Source of the DNA: Rubripirellula tenax
Lineage (GTDB): Bacteria; Planctomycetota; Planctomycetia; Pirellulales; Pirellulaceae
DNA length: 64,000 nucleotides
Direction of reading: 5' to 3'
Assembly (NCBI RefSeq): GCF_007860125.1
Contig: NZ_SJPW01000008.1
Coordinates: 347,553 to 411,552, forward strand
Numbering within the stretch: the first letter of the stretch is position 1; each line of letters starts with the position of its first letter. The translations under genes were made by a program, and so were the position numbers. Below are positions 1 to 6,952 of the stretch, piece after piece. The notes under the pieces were generated by a model. The model was not told where the DNA came from, ran no database searches, and worked only from the letters and a program-made list of their open reading frames with translations.

Positions 1-666
1 AGCAGGATTGCCAGTCGCCGGATTGGTCGCGGGACGAGTTCGCGAGGCGGGGCGTCGCTTGATCGGTGACAATGCGAGTTGACTTTGATAGGCGACGTCG
101 GCAATCAGCGAATCCACACGGTTACGACACACTGCGTAAACGGCAAGCGACGGAATCGCAACGACCAGACCGCCAACCGTCGTCACCAGCGCTTGATAGA
201 TGCCCTCTGCCAAGTCGCCGGCGCCGGCGCCACCGCGAGTCGTTGCGACTTGTTGGAAAGCAAAGATCATGCCCGTCACAGTGCCGAGCAGGCCGACCAT
301 CGGTGCGATATTGCCGATCACCGACAAGTACTCGATGCGCCGCATCAACCGCGATGCCTGACTGGCCAATGAATCTTCCACCGCTTTTTCGACCTCGTTC
401 CAACCGAATTCGTATTCCGATAAGCCTGATAGCAACACAACGCTCAAGACGCTCGGGGCACGACGACAAGCCGCATCGGCTTCTGCGATGCGTCCGGTCA
501 ACAAAGATTGCCGAACCGCGTCGCTAACACCTTCGGGCAGCACCTCGCTGCGTCGTAACGTCATCACTTGGTCAAACACCAAGTAGGCCGCTGCGACCGA
601 AAGTGCAAACAAGACCAGCAGAATGATGACACCGACAACGCCACCGCTGAGCAGAATTTCAACCAT
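1..666 (-). CDS. MotA/TolQ/ExbB-type proton channel subunit (partial, runs off the left edge)
   Basis: The 222 visible residues start at ATG 666 and show no stop before the window edge. The layout is that of ExbB/TolQ: one N-terminal membrane segment (about residues 5-31), a cytoplasmic loop, then two C-terminal segments (about 112-137 and 152-182). The second carries the GLLGTVTGM motif and the third the TTVGGLVVAIPS motif, both hallmarks of the proton-conducting core. The start overlaps the stop of the upstream GTPase gene as TAATG, so translation is probably coupled. In the family such subunits work with an ExbD/TolR partner, which would lie beyond the left edge. Identity is secure; the process it energises is unknown, but its partners here are a kinase and two GTPases. 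Confidence 0.9.
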   Translation of the reverse strand, partial: MVEILLSGGVVGVIILLVLFALSVAAAYLVFDQVMTLRRSEVLPEGVSDAVRQSLLTGRIAEADAACRRAPSVLSVVLLSGLSEYEFGWNEVEKAVEDSLASQASRLMRRIEYLSVIGNIAPMVGLLGTVTGMIFAFQQVATTRGGAGAGDLAEGIYQALVTTVGGLVVAIPSLAVYAVCRNRVDSLIADVAYQSQLALSPIKRRPASRTRPATNPATGNPA

Positions 667-2531
667 TAGGTCATCTCCGTTTCTGCGGCCCCAGCCGAAA
701 GCAAAAACTCGGCGTCCGAAAGCAACGGTTCGTCCCAACGCAAACGCAGAACGCCATCGTTTTGCAATTGTTCGATCGTCGAGTGGTGGCTTTCACGGAT
801 GCGAGCCTCCGCCGCGCGGACACGACCCCGGCTCTGCGAAACAGAAATCACGATCATTGCAAACAACGCCGTCGGCAGGACGGACAAAATCAAGCTGGTC
901 AACATCATGGCCAAGTCAGGCCGCGGGAACGCATCGATGTCACCGCCAAGATCACGCAGTGTGACCAGGCTGGCGTCGAAATAGCTGCGGTAAAGCGCGA
1001 CGACCGGTCCAGCCATCAAGAACCAAAAAATTGCAGTTCCGATCAATCCGCATAACATCGCCATGGTTGATGTGATGGAGACGCGATCGACTTCGGAATC
1101 AAAGATTTGTTGCGATCGTTCTTGTAACGTATCAATGCCCGATAGATACGCGACCTGGCCCCGCGATTCTGTATCGGTTAGCGAAGGTGTCGAGTGGCGT
1201 TTTCCGTCACGAAGTGCGGCAACTTCGTCACGAAATCGGACGGCCAGCGGCCCCAGTCGATCGGCGACGGCTGCATCGCTTCGCCTGCGAAGACCGTCGC
1301 GCAGGTCTGACTGGGCGTCACGATCAGACGTCAAATTCTTTGTCGTTGTCCACATGGCGCTTATTAGCGAGGGCAGCGACCCGGACAACGACATCAGCAC
1401 GCGATCCCAAGCGCCGTGCGTCAGATTTAGAATCGCAAGTTGAGTCCGATAGGGAAACCAGAACGCTGCGGTCTCGTTCAACAGCGACAGCCGCAGTCGC
1501 GACCGCACGGCCGCCTGCAGCGAACTGCCGCTGCCGACCAACGACTCGGCGACCTGCAACGGCAATTTGCGAGCTTCTTCGTTGAGCCGTCGGACTGCCG
1601 CGGTCAGATCTGGCAGGCGATCCCTCAGTATCGAATGCAATGCTGCTCGGAACCGCGAGTCCAACGCTGACAAACGGGTGCTGCGACGTCGATCGCCTTC
1701 CCACACTTCGCCGATTTCTGAATTCAATCGTTCCGCAATCGTTTCGGCAGCCGCGGCGCCGACATCGTTCTCGCTGCGATCGCCGACGTCAAAGTCTTCC
1801 ACGATCACGGGTGCGACCACGCGGCTGGTCGGTGCTGCTTTTCGCATTCGTGCGATGAACGCGTCGATGTCGGTATCAAGTGAATCGTCGCGGCGGACGG
1901 CGTTGACCACTGGGATCACGATCGTTCCCTCACTCGCCTCGGTCAGCAGCGCCACCGTTTCGCTGCGCAGTTGATCGCGGCGAACCACTAACAACAAAAC
2001 GGACGCCATCGACAGCGCGCGTTTGGCGACGGCCGCGATCGCCGGCCGTGCATCCGTCGCCCCCGGTGCATCGACCAACAGATAAGGCGTTCCAATGGTT
2101 TGCATGTTCGCCGCGGGACAGTGAATGAACTGTTCGCTACGCGAATCCAAGTCGGCCGGCGGCGAAGGGCCGATCCAAACCAGTTTCTCGGTGGCTTCAT
2201 CCAAGTTGTTGCCACTTCGCACCAAGCCGGCCGCAGACGAGCTGCGAATCAATTGGCGAATCAACCATGACTTGCCCTGCCCGGTGGCGCCGACGATCGC
2301 AATGACGGTATTGCCCTGGCTACGGTCCTCCAGAATCATCCGGCGAGCTTGGCTATGTTGCTCGCACAGCTCCAGCACTTCTCGGCCCGTGGGGCTGTCA
2401 CCCAGAACATGGGTCGTCGCCCTTCGAACACGACGCAGGAAATCTTCGCCGGGGCGGCCAAGATGATCTTCCAAAATGGCGTCTGAAGAACCGCCACCGA
2501 CGGATCGAGATTCTAAGGATGGGCTATTCAC
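666..2531 (-). CDS. Membrane-anchored P-loop GTPase-like protein (second of a pair)
   Basis: A 621-residue protein starting at GTG 2531, which overlaps the TGA of the preceding GTPase gene as GTGA. A Walker A/G1 motif GATGQGKS lies at residues 81-88, a G3-type DAPG at 154-157, and a possible G4 around N210 in a VVNAVRRDD context that departs from the canonical NKxD. A long helical region follows, then two hydrophobic segments (about 487-515 and 540-565) and a charged C-terminal tail. This is the plan of bacterial dynamin-like or membrane-tethered GTPases: an N-terminal G domain, helical middle and membrane hairpin. I cannot assign a named family. Nucleotide binding is likely; GTP specificity and membrane remodelling are inferences. 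Confidence 0.75.
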   Translation of the reverse strand: MNSPSLESRSVGGGSSDAILEDHLGRPGEDFLRRVRRATTHVLGDSPTGREVLELCEQHSQARRMILEDRSQGNTVIAIVGATGQGKSWLIRQLIRSSSAAGLVRSGNNLDEATEKLVWIGPSPPADLDSRSEQFIHCPAANMQTIGTPYLLVDAPGATDARPAIAAVAKRALSMASVLLLVVRRDQLRSETVALLTEASEGTIVIPVVNAVRRDDSLDTDIDAFIARMRKAAPTSRVVAPVIVEDFDVGDRSENDVGAAAAETIAERLNSEIGEVWEGDRRRSTRLSALDSRFRAALHSILRDRLPDLTAAVRRLNEEARKLPLQVAESLVGSGSSLQAAVRSRLRLSLLNETAAFWFPYRTQLAILNLTHGAWDRVLMSLSGSLPSLISAMWTTTKNLTSDRDAQSDLRDGLRRRSDAAVADRLGPLAVRFRDEVAALRDGKRHSTPSLTDTESRGQVAYLSGIDTLQERSQQIFDSEVDRVSITSTMAMLCGLIGTAIFWFLMAGPVVALYRSYFDASLVTLRDLGGDIDAFPRPDLAMMLTSLILSVLPTALFAMIVISVSQSRGRVRAAEARIRESHHSTIEQLQNDGVLRLRWDEPLLSDAEFLLSAGAAETEMT

Positions 2532-4642
2532 TTGGCCGATGTCCCGCCTCGAGGTAATACTTTTTTTAATTCTTGTCGAAATTCGTCACGAACGTGGTAC
2601 ATCGGCAAAGCGGGACCGATGGCTTCACGAACAATGATTTTCGAAGCGACCAACTTTTCGTTTGCGCCGCCAACGCGAATCGACGGTAACTTTTTCAGTC
2701 GCGCAACGCCAAAGGTATCGCAAAGAACTGCGTGGAAGTCCGATAGCTGTTGCCGAGCCGCTTGCCGACCGACGCTTCGCGTACTTTGTGCACCTGCCCA
2801 CATCGTTGCATAAGCCCCCAAGCCCAATGCCGCGAACAACTCGGGAATCGATGCCGATGCGATGACGGTGCTGCCGAAGTCAAGGGGAATCATCAACACG
2901 CCCGCAAACGCGGCAAGTGTCGCTGCCAAAGGCGTCAACCCGGCGGCCAGCTTCTTGTGCGTCGGAACTTCGCTCCACATTTGCGAGACGGCTTCATCCA
3001 AACGACGAGGATCGAGCGACGTGAAGTCGTCTCGTTCGAAACGCAAGATTGCCGCTTCCGCAGCTTCTTCCCAGTGCTTTCGGTCCGACTTGTCCGTCAT
3101 CGCCGGCCAATGCTTCAGTGAAGTTTCGCCGCCAAATCGATCGATCGCTTGCAGCAATCGTTCGGGCGTCATCAAGCCGCCGTATTCGCCGCGACGAAAC
3201 TTGTCTTTGATTTCGCCCGCCGCGCGTTCGGCAACGGCCGACGGTGTCAATTGACGAATGAAGTCACCGGCACCGCCGAATACACTTCGCATTTTTGCGT
3301 TCAAGCGAACGCCCCATCGCGCGTACCACGGTGCGGTGATGGCAAACGATTCCGAAAGCTGACGAATGATGCGTTCGCTTTGGTGCAGTCGTAATTCGGT
3401 CACTTCGCCACCAAGGGTTCGGTGTGCGAAGAATTCGAGCGACGCTTTCAGCAAACAGTCTTGCGCCTTCGCCGTGACCACAATCGAGTCGTCGGCATCG
3501 CGATCGATCATCGCAAAACCGTCTTCCCAAACGGCGGTCCTCAGTCCATTTTGCAGTGCCAAGCGAAATTTTTCGAAAAGGACGCCACGATCCAGCCGCA
3601 TCGGCAAGGCCGACAGCAAACGTTCGCCATCGATCGACGCGGGCGGATTATCGTCGGCGTCTTCACGAACTGAGAAAAAGACGGGGCTTAGGTCGGCATC
3701 GGGTTCGAACGCCGCAGCAACCGTAGGGTCAGTCGCGGGAATGTAGGGACGGCTCGCCGGAATTTCAAAATCGTACGCCGCGTAGATCGTTTCGATCCCG
3801 TGGGCGCGGGCGAGTGGTTTGAATGTGTCGTAAACCAGGTCGGGTGTTTGTTTCGGCCGAACTTTATTCACTGCCAATAACCGTGGCACGCCGGGCATCA
3901 AGTCGGCAGCGATTCGAAGCAAGTCACCCAATGTCGCATCACGGGATGATTCGGCACTGGTGACGACCAGAAAAGCCGAGCATAACGTTGCGGCCCTTCC
4001 GAGGAGTTCCCGACGTTGGGTCGGCGATCCGAGTTGCAGGTCGGCATCGGAAACGATATCAGGGCAATCCAACAGTCCGATTCCCGTTGCGTCGAGCGCC
4101 GGATCCGTTGCAACCAGGGGCACATTCAACGCCAAACCGTCTCCGTCGCGATTGTTGTACTGGCCGTGAGCGGTGGCGACGTCTTCGCTTAACATTTCTG
4201 GCGGGTTGCCGACCGCATCGCCGATCCGCCCCATCAGCAAACCCCACAACTCGGCGTCATCTCGCCAAGCTGACGGTAACCACAACACGAACCGGTGCGT
4301 GCCTTCGCGGTTGCTGCTGCCGCGAAGCGTTCGGGCTCGACCGGGTTCGCTTAAGAACGTCGCCACCAACGAAGTCTTGCCGCTGTTGAGCATGCCCGCG
4401 ACCGCGACGGTTGGCCACTGAGCCAATTTGGCGGCCGTTTGCAATTTGCGGCCCGCTGACAACACGTTGGCAAGTGTATCGCTGTCCAAACGGCGCAGTG
4501 CCGACAAGTAGCTGTCGCGACCTTCGCCCGGGTAAGCCCTTTCGACGGCCGCGCGCCGATCATCATCTTCCAGCAGCGCAAGCACACTGGTCCAATCGAT
4601 CGGTTCGTCGTCCTGGCCTCGAAAAGTTCCAAACATATTCAT
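2528..4642 (-). CDS. Dynamin-like P-loop GTPase (first of a pair)
   Basis: A 704-residue protein whose ATG directly abuts the TAG of the kinase gene (TAGATG). G1 is GMLNSGKT at residues 83-90, where the NSGK context is typical of dynamin-type GTPases. G3 is DCPD at 192-195 and G4 is NKVR at 259-262, which lacks the usual Asp. A long alpha-helical region follows, and a hydrophobic pair at about 566-588 and 592-616 suggests a membrane hairpin before a basic tail. It resembles its downstream neighbour in architecture but not in sequence, as in bacterial dynamin-like pairs. It is probably a membrane-associated GTPase; substrate and role are unknown. Confidence 0.75.
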   Translation of the reverse strand: MNMFGTFRGQDDEPIDWTSVLALLEDDDRRAAVERAYPGEGRDSYLSALRRLDSDTLANVLSAGRKLQTAAKLAQWPTVAVAGMLNSGKTSLVATFLSEPGRARTLRGSSNREGTHRFVLWLPSAWRDDAELWGLLMGRIGDAVGNPPEMLSEDVATAHGQYNNRDGDGLALNVPLVATDPALDATGIGLLDCPDIVSDADLQLGSPTQRRELLGRAATLCSAFLVVTSAESSRDATLGDLLRIAADLMPGVPRLLAVNKVRPKQTPDLVYDTFKPLARAHGIETIYAAYDFEIPASRPYIPATDPTVAAAFEPDADLSPVFFSVREDADDNPPASIDGERLLSALPMRLDRGVLFEKFRLALQNGLRTAVWEDGFAMIDRDADDSIVVTAKAQDCLLKASLEFFAHRTLGGEVTELRLHQSERIIRQLSESFAITAPWYARWGVRLNAKMRSVFGGAGDFIRQLTPSAVAERAAGEIKDKFRRGEYGGLMTPERLLQAIDRFGGETSLKHWPAMTDKSDRKHWEEAAEAAILRFERDDFTSLDPRRLDEAVSQMWSEVPTHKKLAAGLTPLAATLAAFAGVLMIPLDFGSTVIASASIPELFAALGLGAYATMWAGAQSTRSVGRQAARQQLSDFHAVLCDTFGVARLKKLPSIRVGGANEKLVASKIIVREAIGPALPMYHVRDEFRQELKKVLPRGGTSAK

Positions 4643-6952
4643 CTAGTGCGCCGTAACGCTTGCGTCTCCCTCGCTTGGCGAAGTGGCCCCGTCGTCGGTG
4701 GTGGCATCACCCCGGTTCGCCCTATCGTCGATGAACGCGCCATTAAGAACAAGGGACCACCAATTCTTGGCATCGACATCGTCCCACTTCCCCGCGTCAC
4801 AGCATTGATGCAAGCTCGTCGCTAAGTCTTCGATCGAACTTGGCCGAAACTTGGGATCTTTGCTCAAGCAACTCATCAAAACGTTTTGCAGATCGTCTGG
4901 CAACGGGACTCCGATGCGATCACTGGGCCGGATCGGATCTTCTCGCAATTGTTTCAAACAGATGTCAACCGATGCATCGCCTTCGAACATCGGTTTTCCG
5001 ACCAGCAGCGTGTAGCCGACGCCACCGACGGCATAGATGTCACTGCGATGGTTCGATGTGGTCGCGTCACGGACCGTTTCGGGCGCCATGTACATGGGCG
5101 TTCCGGTGATCCCATCAGCCGTTGTCAGCGAAAGATCGCCTCGGTTGGGATCGACGTCTTTGACCAATCCAAAGTCCAGCACTTTCAAGGTGTCCTGGCT
5201 GCCGATCTCGGTCGAGATCATCAGATTCGCAGGTTTGATGTCGCGATGGATGATGCCTTGCGCGTGCGCTTCCGAAAGTGAGCCGCAAATTTGCAGCAGC
5301 AAGTGGATCACGCGTGCCGGCGGTTGATGGCCAAACCGATTGACCAAACTCTGCAGCGTGATCCCCTCCACGTACTCCATCACATAAAAGTAGTCGCCCC
5401 GATCGGTTTGGCCGAAATCAAAGAGGCTGATCGTGTTGGGGTGTCGAAGTCCTGCCGTCATCTGTGCTTCGCGTTCGAATCGCGAGACCGCGACGCTGCT
5501 CTGCGATTCTTTGTCAAGAACTTTGATCGCGACGATACGCTTAAGGAGATCGTGTTCGGCCCGAAAAACGGCGCCCATGCCACCACGCCCCAGCGATTCG
5601 CCCAATCGATAGTGACCAATGCGTCGCTGCGCGTCATCGCCGGCGGCAATTCGACGGTACGCTCGACGCAGCACGATCGCTAACGTGACCAAGATCGCGC
5701 CCATCAACGTCGCCAACGCCAGCATCCCGATCACCAGGCGGCCCAACATTCTTATTGGCACATAGGCTTCGGCTGCATCCATCTCCGATGCAATCCCCAT
5801 TTCGTATTGGGGTAACCAAGTCCAAGCACCGACCACATCAACGCCTCGATAATCTGGGTAGCCGGTAACGTTATCACCGGTTCCTCCACGTGTCGCTTGA
5901 TCCGCCATCAAAGTCAACGCAGCATGCGGAATCGGTTTGGTCGATTGATCCGCAGCTGCTGGGGAGCCCGTCGCATCGCGAACCGTTTCAACGCCCGGGA
6001 CGCACACGGCGATTCGATTCGCACTGGTCACATTGGGTTCCGACGCCAACCGGCCCGCGGCTCGCAATTGATGCTCGAACCGACTGCGTGTCAGCATGGT
6101 TGCATTCCGATCGAACAAATAGGTCTCGCCGCTCGTTCCCAGTCGCGCGACCGCGAGAAGCTTGCTGACAGCGCCCGCCGGGTCGACCAAAACAGCCATC
6201 GTTCCGACCATCTTGCCGTCTGATTCCACTTTGCCGAGTGCCGCCATCATGGGCCAATCGGGAACCGACATCGGACCATCGCCGCGAATCCCAACCGAAC
6301 ACTGGAAAGGTAAACAGATCGTCGATCCGCCGGAAATGACTCTTTGCTTCGCTGATTCCGGAATGGGCAGTCGTCGTCCCACCAATGCCGTCGCTGAAGC
6401 CGCGATCACCTGGTCGTCGCGATCCAGCAAAGCCCAACCAACGGTATTGGACGAGTCGATCGAACGGTCGATTGAATCCAGAGCGCTGGTCGGCGGCAGA
6501 TCCGCGATCGTCCATTCGAATCGGCCCGAGGATGCAGAAATCAGTTCCGTCGCCGTTTCCGCGATCGCCGGATCATTGGCGATCCGATCAACCTCGCGAC
6601 GGCGTTCGGCAAAGTAACCATTCAGTGCAGCCACATTGGCGGACAGATTCGACCGCAGCGAATCGCGAACCAATTGCCGAGTGGATTCGCGCAGCACGTA
6701 TCCGACGAGTATCGCCGCGGCAACCAATCCGATCGCCATCAACATCACCACCCACGGCGCGATGCGGCGAATCAATCGTGCGGTCGGATGATCCGTCACC
6801 GTCAGGCTGCGAAGCATATCCGCCAGCGACGCCGGTCCCGTTGAAGACGCGGTTCCAGACGATGGAGTCACCATCGGCGCATGGTTTGCCGTCGGCGGCC
6901 CCGTCAAAAGGTTCACCAACGCCGTTTCGATTTTCTTGACCAGAAAGCGCAT
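4643..6952 (-). CDS. Transmembrane Ser/Thr protein kinase with extracytoplasmic dCache-type sensor
   Basis: I chose ATG 6952 (769 residues) because translation upstream of it is basic and non-conserved in character. A membrane segment at about 65-86, an extracytoplasmic region at 87-402 with a PDC/dCache look (including the GETYLFDRNATMLT stretch), and a second membrane segment at 403-428 precede a Hanks-type kinase domain from about 447. The kinase has the glycine loop GRGGMG (455-460), lysine in AIKVLD (477), HRD (569-571), DFG (593-595) and APE (623-625), so it should be catalytically active. It is the first gene of a four-gene operon and would report an external signal to the two GTPases and the ExbB-type channel. 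Ligand and phosphorylation targets are unknown. Confidence 0.9.
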   Translation of the reverse strand: MRFLVKKIETALVNLLTGPPTANHAPMVTPSSGTASSTGPASLADMLRSLTVTDHPTARLIRRIAPWVVMLMAIGLVAAAILVGYVLRESTRQLVRDSLRSNLSANVAALNGYFAERRREVDRIANDPAIAETATELISASSGRFEWTIADLPPTSALDSIDRSIDSSNTVGWALLDRDDQVIAASATALVGRRLPIPESAKQRVISGGSTICLPFQCSVGIRGDGPMSVPDWPMMAALGKVESDGKMVGTMAVLVDPAGAVSKLLAVARLGTSGETYLFDRNATMLTRSRFEHQLRAAGRLASEPNVTSANRIAVCVPGVETVRDATGSPAAADQSTKPIPHAALTLMADQATRGGTGDNVTGYPDYRGVDVVGAWTWLPQYEMGIASEMDAAEAYVPIRMLGRLVIGMLALATLMGAILVTLAIVLRRAYRRIAAGDDAQRRIGHYRLGESLGRGGMGAVFRAEHDLLKRIVAIKVLDKESQSSVAVSRFEREAQMTAGLRHPNTISLFDFGQTDRGDYFYVMEYVEGITLQSLVNRFGHQPPARVIHLLLQICGSLSEAHAQGIIHRDIKPANLMISTEIGSQDTLKVLDFGLVKDVDPNRGDLSLTTADGITGTPMYMAPETVRDATTSNHRSDIYAVGGVGYTLLVGKPMFEGDASVDICLKQLREDPIRPSDRIGVPLPDDLQNVLMSCLSKDPKFRPSSIEDLATSLHQCCDAGKWDDVDAKNWWSLVLNGAFIDDRANRGDATTDDGATSPSEGDASVTAH

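Follow-up and report, generated by a model that had tools for sequence, protein, structure and literature searches.

A pair of dynamin-like proteins encoded with a sensor kinase and an ExbB subunit in Rubripirellula tenax

Why should a planctomycete place a sensor kinase, two putative membrane-remodeling proteins and one subunit of a proton channel in the same operon? The question is raised by a 64,000-nucleotide stretch of the Rubripirellula tenax genome (assembly GCF_007860125.1, contig NZ_SJPW01000008.1, positions 347,553 to 411,552; hereafter the window), which starts inside a four-gene minus-strand operon with the order kinase, gtp1, gtp2 and exbB (Table 1). A first-pass annotation had read these genes, joined by TAGATG, GTGA and TAATG junctions, as a self-contained system in which the kinase controls a pair of GTPases coupled to a proton-driven motor. 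All four genes and the three junction sequences are confirmed. As described below, gtp1 and gtp2 very probably encode a pair of bacterial dynamin-like proteins (DLP1 and DLP2), and exbB descends from a separate operon whose other genes lie elsewhere in the genome. Labels beginning with G, L, C, f and g are our own for genomes, loci, contigs, families and genera.

Two dynamin-like proteins that occur together

The dynamin-like nature of these proteins is well hidden from sequence searches. Among the window proteins, Pfam matches gtp2 to MMR_HSR1 right at the cut-off (21.9 bits) and returns nothing for gtp1. Searches against solved structures reach best E values of 0.0068 for one protein and 0.15 for the other, and Dynamin_N is recognized in four of 62 DLP1 members and two of 45 DLP2 members. 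Even when the two families are compared profile to profile, the G domain is the only part that aligns (E 0.026, probability 1.9%).

The predicted structures, by comparison, point consistently to the dynamin superfamily. The AlphaFold model of DLP1 (alignment of 62 sequences; pLDDT 84.9, pTM 0.79) retrieves members of this superfamily throughout Foldseek ranks 1-26, including Drp1, dynamin, IniA, Fzo1, mitofusins, EHD4, the Campylobacter jejuni pair and SynDLP. The same holds for ranks 1-38 with the DLP2 model (alignment of 45 sequences; pLDDT 85.4, pTM 0.70), for which BDLP (2j68) comes first at E 1e-8. TM-scores are low, at 0.18-0.28 of the query for DLP1 and 0.19-0.35 for DLP2, as is expected for hinged proteins captured in other states, and thus the matches are best read domain by domain. 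By VIA, DLP1 aligns with Fzo1 over 308 residues lying between residues 5 and 704 (Z 19.0, 5.7 Å) and with Mfn1 at Z 18.7. These best matches nevertheless share only ~12% identity with DLP1, and they act at the mitochondrial outer membrane rather than at a bacterial membrane. DLP2 yields a tie between EF-Tu (Z 16.6, 178 residues, G domain only) and Mfn1 (Z 16.4, 305 residues). No weight is placed on which folds the VIA lists lack.

Both proteins also carry a hydrophobic region at roughly 80-90% of the chain, which we take to be the same relative position as in BDLP and the mitofusins. Hydropathy reveals two clear C-terminal stretches in gtp2 (~484-513 and 546-564) and one in gtp1 (569-587), whose second stretch appears solely as predicted helices. 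The membrane hairpin that had been assigned to each protein is therefore secure in gtp2 and likely in gtp1.

The nucleotide-binding motifs are less orthodox. A canonical G1 P-loop is present in every sequence (G83, G88 and K89 in 62/62 for DLP1; G81, G86 and K87 in 45/45 for DLP2). The G3 DxxG motif is largely kept in DLP2, with D in 45/45 and G in 43/45. All 62 DLP1 sequences have D at the G position, and nearly every one reads DCPD, which is an unusual switch-2 for a dynamin-like protein. Neither protein has a canonical G4 ([NT]KxD): across the 62 DLP1 sequences an N precedes K or R and the D is replaced by R, P or K, and those of DLP2 begin with N, T or S and retain D in only 3/45. Because G4 is not canonical in either protein and DLP1 has D for G in DxxG, we do not carry over the earlier GTPase label, and the assignment to the dynamin-like proteins rests on fold.

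Phylogenetic distribution adds a second line of evidence. DLP1 and DLP2 are found in the identical 49 of the 346 genomes sampled from the order, and neither occurs alone at the thresholds used (E below 1e-60 for DLP1 and below 1e-30 for DLP2, with three first-look candidates per genome scored for the DLPs and seven for ExbB). Weak matches were left uncounted, namely those of DLP1 in G048, G485, G562 and G635 (~1e-4) and of DLP2 in G052 (1.5e-5), and in G574, G468 and G498 the DLP2 match covers the C-terminal half only. Nearly all 49 genomes have one match each. The two genes are adjacent in 37/49 genomes. In the other 12 (G034, G332, G556, G666, G693, G741, G633, G672, G737, G027, G629 and G717), they lie on separate contigs or ~10-13 kb apart, although in G332 the DLP2 gene sits at a contig end and might adjoin DLP1. 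Linkage alone thus does not explain the co-occurrence. Likewise, all ten genomes chosen for having no adjacent DLP2 or exbB contain DLP2. The two proteins are an obligate pair, which, together with the modeled folds, bears out the dynamin-like pair proposed at first pass; that they are bacterial dynamin-like proteins working as a pair is, on these models, highly probable.

Within the order sample, the pair is found in two families (47 genomes in f1 and two in f10). A phylum-wide search with an early DLP2 profile matched 6/392 genomes, three of them at E below 1e-100 and three weakly, and the strong match in G402, a member of another order, is adjacent to DLP1. Most of the named contigs that carry the module come from planctomycetes, among them Rhodopirellula, Rubripirellula, Stieleria and Pirellula.

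A few further occurrences deserve mention. Homologues on contigs of metagenome-assembled genomes labelled Myxococcales and Verrucomicrobia (L117 and L127) may reflect transfer or misbinning. Contig C2 of G574 (L233) has two copies of the DLP pair with flanking sequence, equal in score and ~6.9 kb apart, which may be a recent duplication or an assembly artefact. In the Pirellula-type loci L097, L101, L110 and L114, putative obg-like and coaX-like genes come before the pair; a putative MnmE-like gene comes after it in some of these loci.

Ancestry and partners of ExbB

The fourth gene was correctly read as a MotA/TolQ/ExbB channel subunit. Its product matches PF01618 (MotA_ExbB) at E 3.6e-27, with 95.1 bits where 22.9 are required, and it spans 245 amino acids at full length (L003 7929-8666), the final 72 bases lying beyond the left edge of the window. 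The threonines T129, T162 and T163, at positions that presumably line the pore, are kept in 22/22 ExbB sequences. TolQ and ExbB are the closest solved chains to its profile. The NCBIfam cut-offs for TolQ and ExbB, by contrast, are far from reached (for tolQ, 82 versus the required 221 bits). Orthologues stand apart from other family members in the tested set, at 320-448 bits compared with at most 143, and exbB genes linked to DLP2 form a supported group in the ExbB tree (97/95). Those of G027, G463, G462, G464 and G465 join paralogues at an open fork, and their orthology rests on scores.

An ExbB would be expected to have an ExbD partner, and the first-pass annotation had suggested looking for one to the left. 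None was found in the 8 kb left of the window, and the nine PF02472 matches that Pfam returns for the whole genome include none on C8, the contig that carries the operon. Candidate partners are present in trans. The genome encodes seven PF01618 proteins in all, of which four have an ExbD directly downstream, one a putative MotB-like gene and one two possible ExbD-like genes; the exbB of the DLP operon has neither. Conversely, a tandem ExbD1-ExbD2 pair stands without ExbB at C3:934069-934895. Among the matches listed, all 14 of the linked genomes examined, R. tenax included, have such a tandem and lack a strong PF01618 gene within 3 kb of it (13 inspected directly, G458 from coordinates only). 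The pairing table behind these counts covers PF01618 rows of at least ~78 bits and PF02472 rows of at least ~60 bits, and its Pirellula-type rows are incomplete. An apparent ExbB without ExbD on C8 of G460 proved to be a cut-off artefact, its ExbD scoring 59 bits. Separately, R. tenax carries another ExbD-family gene without an adjacent ExbB on C7 (C7:306039; L176 8015-8680), which falls together with an ExbD-like gene from L180 when the ExbD family is arranged in a tree.

Relatives with the genes still together reveal where these orphans come from. The orthologous exbB is followed by exbD1-exbD2 in G027 and in the DLP-bearing genomes G734, G625 and G574, and the three are contiguous in 8/10 chosen DLP-less genomes; of the remaining two, G411 shows exbB and ExbD2 and G047 exbB alone. 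The 20 loci behind this survey were chosen rather than drawn at random. In 6/10 of the DLP-less genomes, exbB is preceded by genes for a VWA protein with an N-terminal anchor and for a TPR-type protein of the periplasm, and it is often followed by one for a large repeat-like protein. In the VWA protein, Pfam detects VWA and no other domain, mostly below cut-off. This protein also has an invariant SxxxH within its N-terminal hydrophobic segment (8/8), a motif that we regard as a hallmark of TonB. The older operon is thus VWA/TonB-like, TPR, exbB, exbD1 and exbD2.

In the clade of R. tenax, this operon is split three ways, into VWA-TPR, exbD1-exbD2 and an exbB placed behind DLP2. In R. tenax, VWA and TPR-type genes (matched at 311 and 143 bits) are neighbors at ~C3:801.7-803.6 kb and are not followed by exbB; VWA and TPR adjoin without exbB in 5/6 loci examined. 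ExbD1-ExbD2 and a repeat-like protein are encoded near C3:931-935 kb, whereas exbB belongs to the DLP operon, on C8. The older operon also breaks up without the DLPs, because exbB and the ExbD tandem are apart in the Pirellula-type genomes G462, G464 and G465, in which exbB is not beside DLP2. ExbD1 was assigned by position and scores, as the ExbD tree has long branches and does not cleanly part ExbD1 from paired ExbDs.

Given the operons of these relatives, ExbB in all likelihood works with the trans-encoded ExbD1-ExbD2. The four genes had instead been viewed as a machine complete in itself, in which ExbB alone, with no ExbD, directly energizes the pair under kinase control. Their union in a single operon with coupled junctions speaks for that proposal. 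However, the normal pore motifs of ExbB are intact, a cognate-looking ExbD1-ExbD2 exists in each of the 14 linked genomes noted above, DLP pairs without an adjacent exbB are common, and ExbB belongs by descent to an independent exbB-exbD1-exbD2 operon. We consider such a machine improbable. The first-pass annotation had itself raised the alternative that exbB belongs to an independent operon; by ancestry this is nearly so, but in this clade the gene has moved from there to its place behind DLP2.

Linkage of the pair, exbB and the kinase

Among 20 gtp1 loci from R. tenax and 19 relatives, 16 preserve the order gtp1-gtp2-exbB (one of the other four, L044, stops at a contig edge within gtp2), and in 11 the kinase is directly upstream of gtp1, which is more than a chance arrangement. 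In a larger tally of 79 named loci with DLP1, which leaves out L127, 57 have DLP2 as the next gene downstream; where DLP1 and DLP2 are adjacent and the gene after them is on the sequence, that gene is exbB in 28/53 loci. Across the order sample, no more than 500 bases separate DLP2 from exbB in 23/49 DLP genomes, representing eight genera (g1, g12, g14, g42, g305, g313, g315 and g320) of one family, and in many loci the junction is overlapping or nearly so. Conservation of the gene order, a check suggested at first pass, is borne out for DLP1-DLP2-exbB in several genera, but the kinase stands beside DLP1 in only part of the family.

The DLP2-exbB link outlasts its surroundings, as at least six kinds of gene follow exbB among 27 loci. 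It also survives the breakup of the block. In G034, G449 (Rhodopirellula maiorica) and G450 (strain CA13), kinase-DLP1 forms one locus and DLP2-exbB another, and in G454 a DLP1 gene lacks the kinase while DLP2-exbB lies elsewhere. Kinase-DLP1 and DLP2-exbB are hence two sub-units, each kept together where the block is broken. Two further cases were set aside. The Pirellula-type genome G741 has DLP2 2.8 kb from exbB, which is a probable coincidence because the two larger intervening genes accompany DLP2 in L223/L224 (one contig, twice) and in L225, with exbB not near. In L107, a gene resembling exbB lies close to gtp1 but scores 93 bits and is a paralogue.

The arrangement that we favor, while stopping a little short of calling it probable, is a DLP pair on the inner membrane that is co-expressed with a sensor kinase and with the energizer of an envelope-spanning ExbB-ExbD1-ExbD2 machine. 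The DLPs would tether, bend or fuse the cytoplasmic membrane from inside. ExbB-ExbD1-ExbD2 would form a proton-driven motor together with the VWA/TonB-like protein and TPR-type periplasmic proteins encoded elsewhere in the genome, and the DLPs might act where this motor pulls on periplasmic or outer layers. The position of exbB behind DLP2 would keep DLPs and motor in step, and the kinase might tune DLP1 via its periplasmic sensor. We favor a tie between DLPs and motor because the link persists in eight genera and holds where DLP2 is apart from DLP1. Functional coupling of the DLPs and ExbB beyond co-expression is proposed tentatively, and physical coupling is something that we infer. A still stronger version, in which the dynamin pair is mechanically coupled across the inner membrane to the motor as one device gated by the periplasm-sensing kinase, is unlikely, if far from negligible. 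Were it true, nucleotides would power the bending of the cytoplasmic membrane and protons the pulling on outer layers within a single device, and the move of exbB out of its old operon into that of the DLPs would have recorded this mechanical coupling in the genome.

Several observations weigh against the arrangement that we favor. The DLP2-exbB neighborhood is absent in 26/49 DLP genomes, and it may have arisen once and then been inherited; the split cases are not all independent, as G034 and G449 are close relatives. An ExbB orthologue exists in 38/41 DLP-less genomes of the same family (E<=1e-90), so that ExbB does not depend on the pair. In the order as a whole, ExbB is found in ~127/297 DLP-less genomes at E<=1e-60; loosening the cut to E<=1e-40 lets in paralogues and raises the count to 221/297, and one of the 49 DLP genomes (G666) has no match even at that looser cut. 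Only 15/79 named loci have the kinase directly ahead of DLP1. As for the DLPs themselves, the structural matches hold at the level of domains (whole-chain Foldseek TM-scores of 0.18-0.35 of the query), the nucleotide motifs are degenerate, and inspection by eye of the DLP2 hairpin found no conserved acidic residue that might replace ExbD.

Some of these facts would suit a simpler account, which is an appreciable possibility although short of likely: a single ancestral rearrangement put exbB in the DLP operon, where it was kept for adequate expression, and its product works solely with ExbD1-ExbD2, VWA and TPR proteins. The presence of ExbB in DLP-less genomes, the missing link in 26 of the DLP genomes, the independent operon in eight of the ten DLP-less genomes examined and the equally scattered remainder of that operon in this clade are all consistent with a mere change of address. 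Set against this account are the retention of the link in eight genera despite changed other neighbors, the many loci in which junctions overlap or nearly do, and the fact that DLP2 and exbB stay together apart from DLP1.

The kinase itself is a convincing Ser/Thr kinase (Pkinase, E 3.5e-47), and its catalytic-domain residues K477, D571 and D593 are kept in 17/17 relatives. The dCache sensor that had been assigned to it is less clear in the window protein, where dCache_1 scores 17.6 against a 45-bit cut-off, but 13/17 relatives match at E<=0.01 (best 1.3e-12). It is conceivable, though somewhat less than probable, that this kinase controls the DLPs. As written at first pass, neither that control nor the driving of the DLPs by ExbB is supported.

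Other phosphorylation genes have been noted near the motor. Upstream of the trans ExbD1-ExbD2 of R. tenax, C3 encodes a second kinase-like protein (L175 9894-11522), which has a hydrophobic segment and extends into a long C-terminal region. Several genomes of the same clade also have a second kinase-like gene near ExbD1, as in L191, L192, L193 and L196. In the Pirellula-type genomes G462, G464 and G465, a PP2C-type Ser/Thr phosphatase gene follows the exbB orthologue in the place of exbD (Table 1); it was not seen after exbB in G741, G556 and G648. With the phosphatase, the second kinase and the operon kinase, phosphorylation is a recurring theme around the ExbB motor.

Beyond the operon, the gene 82 bases past exbB encodes a 158-amino-acid, putatively copD-like protein with three hydrophobic stretches (L003 7373-7846), followed by a convergent gene. 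Of the 20 gtp1 loci, L033, L034, L040 and L049 have a relative of this small protein close to the module. Clusters of MoxR-type ATPase, DUF58 and VWA (BatA-like) or transglutaminase genes, some of them putatively named, are also nearby (L003 1-4767, L039 435-7605 and L165 6621-7772), with only ~42% identity between the MoxR proteins of R. tenax and L039.

Table 1. Features of the operon in the window and of the phosphatase genes in related loci
Feature	Position	Strand	Description	Basis
Ser/Thr (Hanks) kinase	4643..6952	-	769 aa; transmembrane ~60-90, periplasmic dCache-like ~90-298, transmembrane ~398-428, kinase domain 448-706	Pfam, hydropathy
gtp1 (DLP1)	2528..4642	-	704 aa; mitofusin/BDLP-like topology; C-terminal hydrophobic region ~567-617	AlphaFold model, Foldseek, VIA
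gtp2 (DLP2)	666..2531	-	621 aa; transmembrane hairpin ~484-565	AlphaFold model, Foldseek
exbB	1..666	-	TolQ/ExbB proton-channel subunit; T129, T162, T163	PF01618, alignments
Kinase/DLP1 junction	4640..4645	-	TAG, then ATG	Sequence
DLP1/DLP2 junction	2528..2531	-	4-base overlap GTGA	Sequence
DLP2/exbB junction	664..668	-	TAATG	Sequence
PP2C-type phosphatase	L185 6033-7349			Pfam
PP2C-type phosphatase	L186 7792-9123			Match to L185 at ~500 bits
PP2C-type phosphatase	L187 2393-3751			Match to L185 at ~500 bits

Known systems and implications

Bacterial dynamin-like proteins are usually paired in operons (PMC6104087, accessible text). Like the C. jejuni DLP1/DLP2 pair, BDLP of Nostoc, IniA and DynA/DynB, the two window proteins combine a G domain, a helical neck and a membrane region near the C-terminus, and, as in C. 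jejuni-type pairs, two different DLPs are encoded side by side. They differ in having almost no sequence-level match to the known bacterial proteins, in the DCPD of DLP1 and in the lack of NKxD in both. They also differ in being joined to a kinase and ExbB, partners that the accessible text of PMC6104087 does not mention for known DLP operons. Full-text literature searches, whose coverage excludes most subscription papers, found no description of a kinase, DLP pair and ExbB in combination, and a word search of the main text of PMC10632474 found no dynamin, ExbB, ExbD, TolQ, TonB or MotA.

The older operon resembles the AglRQS machinery of Myxococcus xanthus, in which, according to the accessible text of PMC3169522, one TolQ-like and two TolR-like subunits work with TPR proteins and a TonB-like transducer. 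The likeness is one of composition, as exbB-exbD1-exbD2 amounts to one PF01618 and two PF02472 subunits. In contrast to AglRQS, the planctomycete set includes a VWA protein, is known from its genes alone and, in this clade, has its exbB moved to the DLP operon. The TonB-ExbB-ExbD and Tol-Pal systems share the ExbB/TolQ pore motif, and the ExbB profile finds TolQ and ExbB structures; however, no tonB, tolA, tolB or pal was recognized beside the window exbB, and the older operon has two ExbD genes.

Could the operon serve defense against phage or envelope stress, comparable to LeoABC or Zorya? Zorya ZorAB does include a MotA/ExbB-like channel. PADLOC gives weak matches to LeoBC (0.008), LeoA (0.06) and ZorA (E 0.016), and the kinase matches the PD-T4-6 models (up to E 4.7e-75) and mad6, which probably reflects a shared kinase domain. 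In contrast, no ZorB-like gene is adjacent, the strict pair occurs once per genome in nearly all 49 genomes, and the loci scanned have ordinary chromosomal neighbors, although no search was aimed at mobile elements. A role in defense is very improbable.

Another idea invokes division, with the DLP pair constricting the inner membrane and a Tol-like motor drawing the outer layer in. How planctomycetes bud without FtsZ was called unknown in 2014 (PMC4164004, accessible text), and TolQ and ExbB are the nearest relatives of this ExbB, at the sub-threshold tolQ score given above. However, the pair was not found in 297/346 genomes of the order, which makes a general division machine unlikely, and we see only a slim prospect for this idea.

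The planctomycete cytoplasmic membrane is unusually folded, and a strictly paired dynamin couple is a candidate for bending it. The tie between this couple and a proton-driven envelope motor is a testable proposal, according to which membrane remodeling and proton-driven force may run together. Moreover, relatives in which the operon is intact allow an exbB that lacks an adjacent exbD to be matched to its likely partners in trans.

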